Of a stretch of 64,000 bases of DNA, positions 37,720 through 40,533 are shown piece after piece (within the stretch, counting starts at the first letter, position 1; the number at the start of each line of letters is the position of its first letter). The DNA comes from Acidimicrobiales bacterium (GTDB lineage Bacteria; Actinomycetota; Acidimicrobiia; Acidimicrobiales; RAAP-2). The notes below the pieces were generated by a model. The model saw nothing but the letters and a program-made list of their open reading frames with translations. It searched no databases and was not told where the DNA came from. Position numbers and translations under genes: made by a program. The stretch lies in assembly GCA_025362585.1 (NCBI GenBank), contig JANYFR010000034.1:1-64000 (forward strand), given 5' to 3'.

Positions 37720-38928
37720 CTAATTGAGCCGTTCGACGATCATGGCCATGCCTTGGCCGCCACCGACGCACATCGACTCCATCCCGAAGCGCTGGCCCGA
37801 GTCCTCCAGTGAGTTGAGCAGCGTCGTCATGATGCGCGCCCCGGTCATGCCAAAGGGATGGCCGAGGGCAATCGCGCCGCCGCGGATGTTGAGCTTGTCG
37901 AGGGTGATGCCGAGGTGCTTGGCGCTCGGAATGACCTGGGCCGCGAAGGCCTCGTTGATCTCCACCAGATCGATGTCGTCAATGGTCATGCCGGCACGCT
38001 GGAGCGCTTGACGGCAGGCCTCGATCGGGCCGAGACCCATGATCTCGGGGTTGAGCCCGCTGACCGCGCTCGCCACGATGCGCGCGAGGGGCTTCAGGCC
38101 GAGCTGCTGGGCGCGGGTGTCGCTCATCACGACGACCGCCGCGGCGCCGTCGTTGAGCGGACAGGCGTTGCCGGCGGTGATCGATCCGCCCTCTCGAAAG
38201 ACCGGTTGCAGCGTCGAAAGTCGCTCGAGGGTCGTGCCGGCGCGCGGGCCGTCGTCGCGGGTGACGACGGTGCCGTCGGGCAGCGTGACCGGGATGATCT
38301 CGCGTTCGAAGAAGCCGTTCTCCTGATGGGCCACGGCGAGCTCTTGACTGCGAACGGCGAACTCGTCCATCTCCAGGCGCGAGACCTTTTCGTACTCGGC
38401 GACATTCTCGGCGGTCTGGCCCATGGCGATGTAGATGTCGGGGAGGCCCGGTTGCGCGGTCCAGGGCTCGGAGACCCGCTCCGAGCGACTCTGGGTTCGG
38501 GCCATGGCCTCGGCGAAGAGTGGATTCACGGCCCTGCCGCTGTCCGAGGCCCCGCTCGCGAAACGCGACACCGTCTCAACACCCGCGGCGACGAAGACGT
38601 CACCCTCGCCCGCGCGAATGGCGTGAGCGGCCATGCGAATTGTCTGCAGCGATGAGGAGCAGTAGCGATTCACCGTGACGCCGGGCACGTTGTCGAGCCC
38701 GGCCAGGAGCGCCGCGACCCGAGCGACGTTGAAGCCCGACTCACCGGCCGGCTGACCGCAGCCCACGATGAGGTCCTCCACGCTCTGGGGGTCCAACTCG
38801 GGCACCTTCGCGAGGACGGCGCGCACCACGAGGGCCGTGAGGTCGTCGGGACGCATGTCGACGAGCGAGCCCTTGAAGGCCCGACCAATGGGGGTTCGAC
38901 CAGTGGCGACGATCACGGCTTCGGGCAT
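37720..38928 (-). CDS. acetyl-CoA C-acyltransferase (thiolase)
   Basis: This 402-residue thiolase shows the acyl-enzyme Cys in VNRYCSSSLQTIRMAA (Cys 90), the NGGSITAGNACPLNDGAAA-type block (here GSITAGNACPLNDGAAAV), the His of NIRGGAIALGHPFGMTGARI (near 358) and the second Cys in MCVGGGQGMAMIVE (near 388). It catalyses thiolytic cleavage of 3-ketoacyl-CoA or its reverse condensation; chain-length preference cannot be read. AGGAGG four bases before the ATG at 38928 marks the start. It is an isolated gene that converges on the Trm112-like gene. Confidence 0.92.
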   Translation of the reverse strand: MPEAVIVATGRTPIGRAFKGSLVDMRPDDLTALVVRAVLAKVPELDPQSVEDLIVGCGQPAGESGFNVARVAALLAGLDNVPGVTVNRYCSSSLQTIRMAAHAIRAGEGDVFVAAGVETVSRFASGASDSGRAVNPLFAEAMARTQSRSERVSEPWTAQPGLPDIYIAMGQTAENVAEYEKVSRLEMDEFAVRSQELAVAHQENGFFEREIIPVTLPDGTVVTRDDGPRAGTTLERLSTLQPVFREGGSITAGNACPLNDGAAAVVVMSDTRAQQLGLKPLARIVASAVSGLNPEIMGLGPIEACRQALQRAGMTIDDIDLVEINEAFAAQVIPSAKHLGITLDKLNIRGGAIALGHPFGMTGARIMTTLLNSLEDSGQRFGMESMCVGGGQGMAMIVERLN

Positions 38929-38990
38929 GGGTCCTCCTAGGAGCACGGCAGGATTACTGGAGCGAGCATACCCAACTCGTCCCCGGCGCC

Positions 38991-39506
38991 TCAGTGTGAC
39001 GAGTCGACGTCCAGGGGCCCTTCATCGTCGAAACCCTGGCGCACGCCCTGACCGGCCCGGCGACGCAGCTGCTCGGGTTCGAACAGCATCCAGTAGGCGT
39101 TACGCGCGTGCTTGCGCGAGCGGTTTTCGAAGACTTGCGCCAGCACCTCGGGGTCGTCGGCCTCGTCCTCGTGGACGAAGACCTCGAGGATCGGAGTGGA
39201 CGTGAGGAGTTGGGCCAGCATGATGCCCTGTGCGGCCTCGTGGGCGCACTGCTTGTCGATGGGGGCCCTACCCGGCATGCCCAGCGCCACGACGATCTGA
39301 CAGCCGTCCCGTTCGATCAGGTTCTTCGCGGCGACCGCGAGATCCTTAAAGCCGGGGACGGTCCTCGCCATCACGGTAAACGTGGTGTCGAAGCCGGGGC
39401 ACGTTGCCAGTTCGGCGCGCGCGGCGCCGCCCATGTCGTAGCGGGCGAACATCGTGTCGACGACCCCGATTCTCACCTTCTGCGCGGACTTCTTGTCCTT
39501 GGCCAT
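38991..39506 (-). CDS. ribC: riboflavin synthase of the archaeal (lumazine-synthase-like) class
   Basis: The 171 residues match archaeal RibC almost end to end: VRIGVVDTMFARYDM, then RTVPGFKDLAVAAKNLIE, GCQIVVALGMPGRAPIDKQC, AHEAAQGIMLAQLLTSTPIL, EVFVHEDEADD and, near the C-terminus, GQGVRQGFDDEGP. In Methanocaldococcus the corresponding pentameric enzyme dismutates 6,7-dimethyl-8-ribityllumazine to riboflavin; it is unrelated to the two-domain bacterial RibE. Nearly every block conserved in the archaeal proteins is retained, so activity is expected. No other rib gene is nearby. GGAG four bases before the ATG and TACACT farther upstream suggest its own promoter. A divergent lumazine synthase-like role is the only serious alternative. 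Confidence 0.88.
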   Translation of the reverse strand: MAKDKKSAQKVRIGVVDTMFARYDMGGAARAELATCPGFDTTFTVMARTVPGFKDLAVAAKNLIERDGCQIVVALGMPGRAPIDKQCAHEAAQGIMLAQLLTSTPILEVFVHEDEADDPEVLAQVFENRSRKHARNAYWMLFEPEQLRRRAGQGVRQGFDDEGPLDVDSSH

Positions 39507-39579
39507 GGTGCTCCATTCGTGACTCGACCCCAGTGTAGGAGTCGAGTGGGCCAGAGCCCGCTCGAGTGGGCGAGGACCT

Positions 39580-40533
39580 CTAGCGCGGCGCGAGCCCTTC
39601 GACGGCCTCTTTTAGATCGACGCCGAACGGGACGATGGCGATGGACGGGATCTGCACGCCCGCCTCGACGTAACGCGCCACGTGCTCGCGGCACGCCCCG
39701 TAGGAGCCGTGGATGATCAGTTCGTCGACGACCCGGTCGGGGATGAGCTCGTTGGCGAGCTGACGATCCCCGGCGTCCCACGCGTCCCACATTGGCTGCA
39801 GCGCCTCGCCACGTCCGAGCCACCGGTGGAACTCGGCGTAGGCCGCGACGGTCAGATATGACGAGATCATGCGTCGTCCGATGAAACGCGCGGTGTCGAC
39901 GTCCTCGGTCGGGACGACGAACAGTCGCGCGGCGATGGTCTTTCCTTCGCCGACCTCGGTGCGGCACTGGGCGACGTCGTTCGCGGCGAGCCAGTTGAGG
40001 ATTGCGCCGTCGGCCTCGGCACCGGCGAGGCGCAGCATCCCGGGGCGCAGCGCGCCGAGCAGGATCGGGGGACGCGCGGCGACGGGTCGCGCGAGTTTGA
40101 AACCGTGGACCTCGAACGTCTCGAAGACCTCGTCAATCTTTTCGCCGTCGAGGGCACGCTTCACGAAGCGCAGCACGTCACGAGTGCGCGCGTACGGCTT
40201 CTCGTAACGCACGCCATTCCAGCGCTGGACGACCGGCTCACTGGACGCGCCGAGACCCATGGTAAAACGGTCCCCGGCGACTTCGGCGAGGGCGGCGATC
40301 GACATCGCCATCAGCCCGGCGCCGCGCGTGAACACGGGCGTCACCGCGACCCCGAGGTGGAGCCGTGGCTCCCAGACTGCGGCCAGGATCAGGGGCGTAA
40401 AGCCGTCCACGCCGTCCACCTCGGCCGACCAGACGTCGGTGTAGCCGAGGTCGGCGAGCCGGTGGAACCACTCCTTGTGTTCCAGCAGCGTGACGCCGTC
40501 AAAGGGGATGGTGATGCCGTAGCGAGAAGTCAT
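39580..40533 (-). CDS. LLM-class, probably F420-dependent, oxidoreductase
   Basis: This 317-residue luciferase-like TIM barrel contains RYGITIPFDGVTLLEH at the N-terminus, FTPLILAAVWEPRLHLGVAVTPVFTRG, LAEVAGDRFTMGLGASSEPVVQRWNGVRYEKP, near-diagnostic of the actinobacterial F420-binding branch (positions 83-114), and PPILLGALRPGMLRLAGAEADG. F420 rather than FMN is inferred from the family branch and from cofD and cofE being encoded in the same window. The substrate is unknown. The ATG at 40533 is preceded by GACACT at 6 bases, close to the leaderless pattern. Confidence 0.87.
   Translation of the reverse strand: MTSRYGITIPFDGVTLLEHKEWFHRLADLGYTDVWSAEVDGVDGFTPLILAAVWEPRLHLGVAVTPVFTRGAGLMAMSIAALAEVAGDRFTMGLGASSEPVVQRWNGVRYEKPYARTRDVLRFVKRALDGEKIDEVFETFEVHGFKLARPVAARPPILLGALRPGMLRLAGAEADGAILNWLAANDVAQCRTEVGEGKTIAARLFVVPTEDVDTARFIGRRMISSYLTVAAYAEFHRWLGRGEALQPMWDAWDAGDRQLANELIPDRVVDELIIHGSYGACREHVARYVEAGVQIPSIAIVPFGVDLKEAVEGLAPR

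Follow-up and report, generated by a model that had tools for sequence, protein, structure and literature searches.

We conclude, with a probability of about 0.92, that ribC encodes the only riboflavin synthase of this Acidimicrobiales genome, that the enzyme is of the archaeal class, and that it replaced the bacterial enzyme RibE in an old swap inherited across a lineage of ten families. RibC is an old inherited trait of that lineage and not an oddity of a single genome, and what is new here is the sole reliance on an archaeal-class enzyme across an actinobacterial lineage. Throughout, the window is the whole stretch of 64,000 nucleotides that was analysed; its genome is a draft of 64 contigs that is 96.4% complete.

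In the riboflavin synthase reaction, one molecule of 6,7-dimethyl-8-ribityllumazine hands a four-carbon unit to a second one, yielding riboflavin and 5-amino-6-ribitylaminouracil, and the latter goes back into the RibH reaction and is also a precursor of F420. Bacterial RibE (TIGR00187, PF00677) carries out the same reaction as RibC with a different fold; the archaeal enzyme is a pentamer with a lumazine-synthase-like fold and shared active sites. In the cells considered here, bacterial RibD, RibBA, and RibH would supply 6,7-dimethyl-8-ribityllumazine, and RibC, by its predicted activity, would convert two molecules of it to riboflavin and 5-amino-6-ribitylaminouracil as the final step. RibC would have taken the role of RibE, with ribE gone from an operon that once read ribD-(ribE)-ribBA-ribH.

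The ribC gene and its neighbourhood

Four features of the window define the locus, all on the minus strand.

37720..38946, minus strand: acetyl-CoA acetyltransferase (thiolase), immediately 3' of ribC and on the same strand (NF005890, 690.9 bits, cut-off 580)
38991..39506, minus strand: ribC, archaeal-class riboflavin synthase, 171 amino acids (open reading frame, TIGR01506, PDB 2b98)
39507..39579, minus strand: 73-nt gap from the LLM stop codon to the ribC ATG; a GGAG lies 4 nt 5' of the ATG (sequence)
39580..40533, minus strand: LLM-class F420-dependent oxidoreductase, immediately 5' of ribC and on the same strand (TIGR03841, 276.8 bits, cut-off 213.65)

Against the NCBIfam equivalog model TIGR01506 (ribC_arch), which has a curated cut-off of 100.55 bits, the product scored 176.2 bits (E 3.8e-52) over model positions 2-151 of 151. 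A structure search placed the Methanocaldococcus jannaschii riboflavin synthase 2b98 nearest (E 3.6e-49, query residues 12-164), and the other near matches were constructs carrying the same enzyme. Because a solved relative exists at 54% identity, the fold is taken as fixed. Thirty-nine columns are invariant in a 12-sequence alignment made up of the window protein, eight proteins that each represent another RibC family of the order, a copy from Streptomyces, the divergent copy of genome G728, and M. jannaschii RibC. Pfam assigns the product to PF00885 (DMRL_synthase, 51.3 bits), a superfamily to which archaeal riboflavin synthase and lumazine synthase both belong. Lumazine synthase as the identity of the product was ruled out on score (TIGR00114, 25.8 bits against a cut-off of 84.6), and a Pfam search of the product for the Lum_binding domain (TIGR00187/PF00677) gave no match. 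Judged from its sequence, the gene is real and the archaeal-class call is correct. The earlier note, which named no strand, had made that call from six short sequence blocks, all of which occur in the 171-residue reading frame in the order it gave; the archaeal profile search it proposed was passed, 2b98 proved the best structure, and its statement that the protein is neither a two-domain RibE nor a lumazine synthase agrees with the scores above.

The GGAG ahead of the ATG is probably a ribosome binding site. A standalone gene with its own such site had been claimed; a probable site is there, but the gene is flanked codirectionally by the LLM oxidoreductase and thiolase genes. The real start codon of the thiolase may lie some codons further in. 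Neighbours of ribC in the window are the LLM oxidoreductase, the thiolase, and a PPK2 kinase, with no ros or other flavin-analogue cluster around, and the GC content of ribC equals that of its surroundings.

The best 80 of 184 named relatives of RibC were kept, and these are mostly of the window's kind and mostly labelled as metagenome-assembled genomes. Among them, a thiolase gene lies no more than 250 nt downstream of RibC in 61 of the 76 with sufficient flank, and an LLM gene no more than 250 nt upstream in 23 of 77. A constant pairing of RibC with the F420-dependent LLM gene was ruled out, the latter being directly upstream in just those 23 named loci; at many others, an acyl-CoA dehydrogenase-like gene stands upstream in divergent orientation. 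By record title, the same best 80 of 184 are mostly Acidimicrobiales, Acidimicrobiaceae, and Actinomycetes metagenome-assembled genomes, with a few from other phyla. Six records (L036, L050, L062, L066, L098, and L103) are titled Acidobacteria, Acidobacteriota, or Saccharibacteria, and these titles look misassigned because the RibC neighbourhood is the same as in the Acidimicrobiales records.

Riboflavin synthesis with and without ribE

In the window genome, ribD, ribBA, and ribH form a single operon on contig C23, preceded by a putative rpe, named by reading and without a family search. The three products exceed their equivalog cut-offs: RibD at 302.1 bits (cut-off 156.35), RibBA at 649 bits (569), and RibH, which is separate from RibC, at 149.7 bits (84.6). 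The ribD stop codon and ribBA start codon overlap by one base (TGATG). A search for the RibE domain PF00677 across the 96.4% complete genome, positive in 11 of 14 control genomes, returned no match. The slot for RibE in the operon is empty, and RibC therefore replaces ribE and does not accompany it. Both options had been offered at the outset, and a whole-genome ribE search had been proposed; replacement is the one that stands, with no RibE in the genome, none over cut-off in the family, and the slot closed. From this genomic context, with RibD, RibBA, and RibH there and RibE not found, we infer that RibC is enzymatically active. The accompanying claim that the organism makes F420 also fits, as the F420 synthesis gene CofH is present at 471.6 bits (cut-off 374.1).

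The same pattern extends across the window's family, where 132 of the 150 genomes exceed the cut-off for RibC, 140 for RibD, and 0 for RibE. At E<=1e-3 a single family genome, G055, has a RibE match, and none turns up in the 98 family genomes with completeness of 90% or more and contamination of 5% or less. Three of the 18 family genomes without RibC over cut-off hold pieces of it (G126, G037, and G025) and 15 hold none; RibH is kept in ten of these 15, G056 and G078 included, and missing in five. Of 297 genomes of the order, 188 have RibE over cut-off (194 at E<=1e-3) and 40 have RibC over cut-off. When RibC over cut-off was set against RibE at E<=1e-3, with the lists matched by hand, 38 genomes were RibC-only, 192 RibE-only, 2 had both (G787 and G728), and 65 had neither. 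Ten families have RibC over cut-off (f1, f5, f82, f99, f103, f107, f109, f112, f123, and f124). A single divergent copy of 119.3 bits occurs in f85. In f99 some genomes are RibE-only, others RibC-only, and others mixed, and the rib operons there are of two distinct kinds.

Wider sampling found RibC over cut-off in 12 of 396 genomes of the phylum and 21 of 247 of the class, all within the window's order. At E<=1e-3 the counts rise to 46 in the phylum sample and 67 in the class sample, and the matches under cut-off are taken as RibH. The distribution over family, order, class, and phylum, with the GC content, rules out a recent transfer of ribC. An acquisition particular to this genome, as the earlier note implied, gives way to a trait that ten families of the order share. 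Of the pattern it had named as speaking against its reading, namely many close bacterial homologues with vertical inheritance and ribE absent everywhere, part was found: there are many such homologues, and ribE is absent among them, but it is common elsewhere in the order.

The operons record the exchange at the level of gene order. At all 30 family loci fetched, which are the best RibD matches at one per genome and include the window genome and two RibC-free genomes, ribD leads to ribBA with no ribE match between. The gap, measured to where the match with the window genome's RibBA begins, is -4 to +5 nt at 28 of these loci and 135 and 169 nt at two. For the order, 49 operon loci were assembled from 40 genomes, hand-chosen from those that gave a RibBA match (74 of 77), and nine further loci. 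Thirty-four lack ribE and have ribD-ribBA gaps of -19 to 161 nt (33 measured), and 15 carry ribE with ribD-ribBA distances of 571-760 nt (14 measured); in the RibE genomes G668 and G704, ribE likewise sits between ribD and ribBA. Of the 34 ribE-less loci, 31 come from genomes with RibC over cut-off, against 2 of the 15 ribE loci.

Five genomes depart from this correspondence (G056, G078, G719, G787, and G728). The sister genomes G056 (L259) and G078 (L260), with completeness of 97% and 96%, retain RibD, RibBA, and RibH, and profile searches for RibC and RibE found neither enzyme in them; loss of the gene, a third enzyme, or gaps in the assembly would account for this. G719 pairs a ribE-less operon with RibE on a separate contig (C113 and C142; L271 and L263), and a search for RibC there found none, so that relocation of ribE, its regain, or a binning mixture may be involved. 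G787 holds a ribE-bearing operon, a ribE-less operon, and RibC on three contigs (L189, L274, and L188), and is either an intermediate state or a chimeric bin. In G728, contig C73 carries a tandem of RibH (NF009084, 214.2 bits, cut-off 160) and a divergent RibC (TIGR01506, 120 bits) at L190:3995-4962, a pair additional to its ribD-ribE-ribBA-ribH operon. A divergent ribB-ribE pair with about 40% identity to the queries lies on contig C65 of G055 (L191:8718-9932); its RibE reached 156.1 bits (cut-off 156.6), and the genome also has RibC and a ribE-less operon. G719, G787, and G055 may be binning artefacts or real mixtures.

Number of replacements and origin of ribC

For the history of the exchange, we favour a single gain beside biotin genes followed by later moves: ribC would have arrived once, ribE would then have been lost, and ribC would have moved afterwards, so as to adjoin mostly the thiolase gene in the window's genus today. 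By tblastn, bioA lies divergently and directly upstream of RibC at loci in f1, f5, f107, f109, and f123, and bioB upstream in f1, f82, f109, and f124, with bioD or bioF near in some loci; overall, RibC adjoins one of these four genes at some loci of f1, f5, f82, f107, f109, f123, and f124. Biotin-gene loci of this kind include L183, L194, L196, L197, and L199. Family models matched in f5, f123, and f124 with bioA over cut-off in 3 of 3, bioF under cut-off, and a partial piece of bioB; for two bioD-like proteins NCBIfam gave no match at 1e-20, and their name comes from reading. Hand counts found a biotin gene in the 1.5-kb flanks of 13 of 30 window-family loci (L003-L032) and near RibC at 11 of 20 loci of other families (L117, L164-L181, and L183). 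The biotin-gene neighbours in seven families suggest an ancestral insertion site of ribC.

The strongest competitor is that RibC was transferred several times between families of the order, with ribE lost after each transfer, a history we regard as a real contender that falls somewhat short of even odds. On a RibBA tree of 49 rows with operon state mapped, the best topology needs four state changes, and 0% of 200 bootstrap trees have a single one (range 3-4). The mixed composition of f99, with its two kinds of rib operon, points the same way, as does the intermixing of f1 with f107 and f109 in the RibC tree, where the starred branches make two changes the minimum for f1; that tree was built on 159 columns, leaves ten forks open, and includes a single archaeal sequence at the end of a long branch, so its root is not trusted and no donor is named from it. 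Against several transfers, no more than one change is required by the starred branches of the RibBA tree, and an AU test did not reject a single clade of all ribE-less operons (p 0.372, or 0.189 with four f99 rows outside the group). The biotin-gene neighbours of RibC in seven families also argue for the single gain.

An archaeal source of ribC is plausible. Sampling for origin covered this bacterial phylum and one archaeal sequence, that of M. jannaschii. Nine of the ten families are represented in the tree, and their RibC rows show 52-59% identity to this sequence, which would fit an archaeal source. A scan of viral contigs with the window protein, an alignment (A1), and the M. jannaschii sequence confirmed no relative, and tblastn of RibC against phages found none. 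Against plasmids, tblastn gave one match, in Streptomyces camelliae, where the gene (L200:11995-12471) lies near rosB and ribA. Its product is 63.6% identical to the window protein, 58-68% to the order rows, and 51% to M. jannaschii. RibC is therefore present outside the order and may move within the phylum.

A 2024 paper (PMC11039241) describes the RibE2 of Streptomyces roseoflavin clusters as an extra riboflavin synthase that closely resembles archaeal enzymes, and proposes horizontal transfer. As presented there, archaeal-like RibE2 is a precedent in the same phylum. Measured against the one archaeal sequence, Streptomyces RibE2 may be closer to the actinobacterial RibC line than to archaea. 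Titles and abstract openings of the literature, with subscription papers mostly outside, held no report of RibC in Acidimicrobiales.

These comparisons bear on a further alternative, that the donor was another bacterial lineage already using RibC or that RibC is an ancient gene retained here and lost in most bacteria. We consider this unlikely, at roughly one chance in four. A bacterial donor would fit the 58-68% identity between the S. camelliae copy and the order rows, both of which stand at 51-59% to M. jannaschii; old retention within the phylum is opposed by the confinement of RibC over cut-off to this order in the phylum and class samples. Returning to the single archaeal gain, its fullest form would have one archaeon-derived ribC enter the biotin locus of the ancestor of the ten families and displace ribE permanently, with that line, and not archaea directly, giving rise to Streptomyces RibE2, and with G056 and G078 since left without RibC. 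This whole chain is improbable. Were G056 and G078 to have lost RibC while keeping RibD, RibBA, and RibH, they would point to uptake or to a third riboflavin synthase, as yet unrecognised.

It is very improbable that RibC merely accompanies a ribE hidden in an assembly gap, in an accessory role like that in Streptomyces roseoflavin clusters. The draft state of the genome leaves room for such a gene, RibE2 of Streptomyces is described as additional (PMC11039241), the RibE2-type gene of the S. camelliae plasmid lies near rosB, and a separate, divergent match to RibE occurs in G055, a genome of the window's family. Yet the slot in the rib operon is closed, and RibE is over cut-off in none of the 150 family genomes, with nothing at E<=1e-3 in the 98 good ones. 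That ribC is an archaeal contaminant of a metagenome bin can practically be dismissed: the named relatives (best 80 of 184) are mostly labelled metagenome-assembled genomes, but synteny, with the thiolase neighbour common to 61 of 76 of these named loci, and GC content like that of the surroundings rule out contamination as the source, and RibC is family-wide.

Significance and comparison with known systems

In this clear non-orthologous replacement, a core vitamin enzyme has given way to an archaeal-class one, and living relatives keep both the state before it (ribD-ribE-ribBA-ribH) and the state after it (ribD-ribBA-ribH, with ribC elsewhere). Absence of ribE in these actinobacteria need not mean riboflavin auxotrophy. 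The lineage is also a possible alternative source of the archaeal-like RibE2 of roseoflavin clusters. Because bacterial RibE can be housed in the RibH capsid, RibC-type cells are a natural test of RibH lacking its RibE partner.

Among known systems, the window protein resembles archaeal RibC (TIGR01506; M. jannaschii 2b98/2b99) in its pass of the full equivalog model, its 54% identity, and its invariant residues. It differs in short N- and C-terminal extensions and in belonging to an actinobacterium, where it is supplied by bacterial RibD, RibBA, and RibH. The roseoflavin RibE2 of Streptomyces davaonensis, Streptomyces 14.2 (S. berlinensis), and the S. camelliae plasmid is likewise archaeal-class and actinobacterial. 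That RibE2, however, is described as an additional, cluster-borne copy, whereas RibC of the window is the only synthase found and lies outside any flavin cluster; the pairing of a ros cluster with a second synthase in the genome that marks roseoflavin-cluster RibE2 does not occur here. Lumazine synthase RibH (TIGR00114) has the superfamily PF00885 in common with RibC, which scores under the cut-off of the RibH model. Bacterial RibE was found neither in the window genome nor in the RibC-type rib operons examined in the lineage. The control genome of Haloferax volcanii gave a RibE domain match and no RibC match, and the bacterial-type RibE of haloarchaea is the mirror image of the present case, a swap in the opposite direction.
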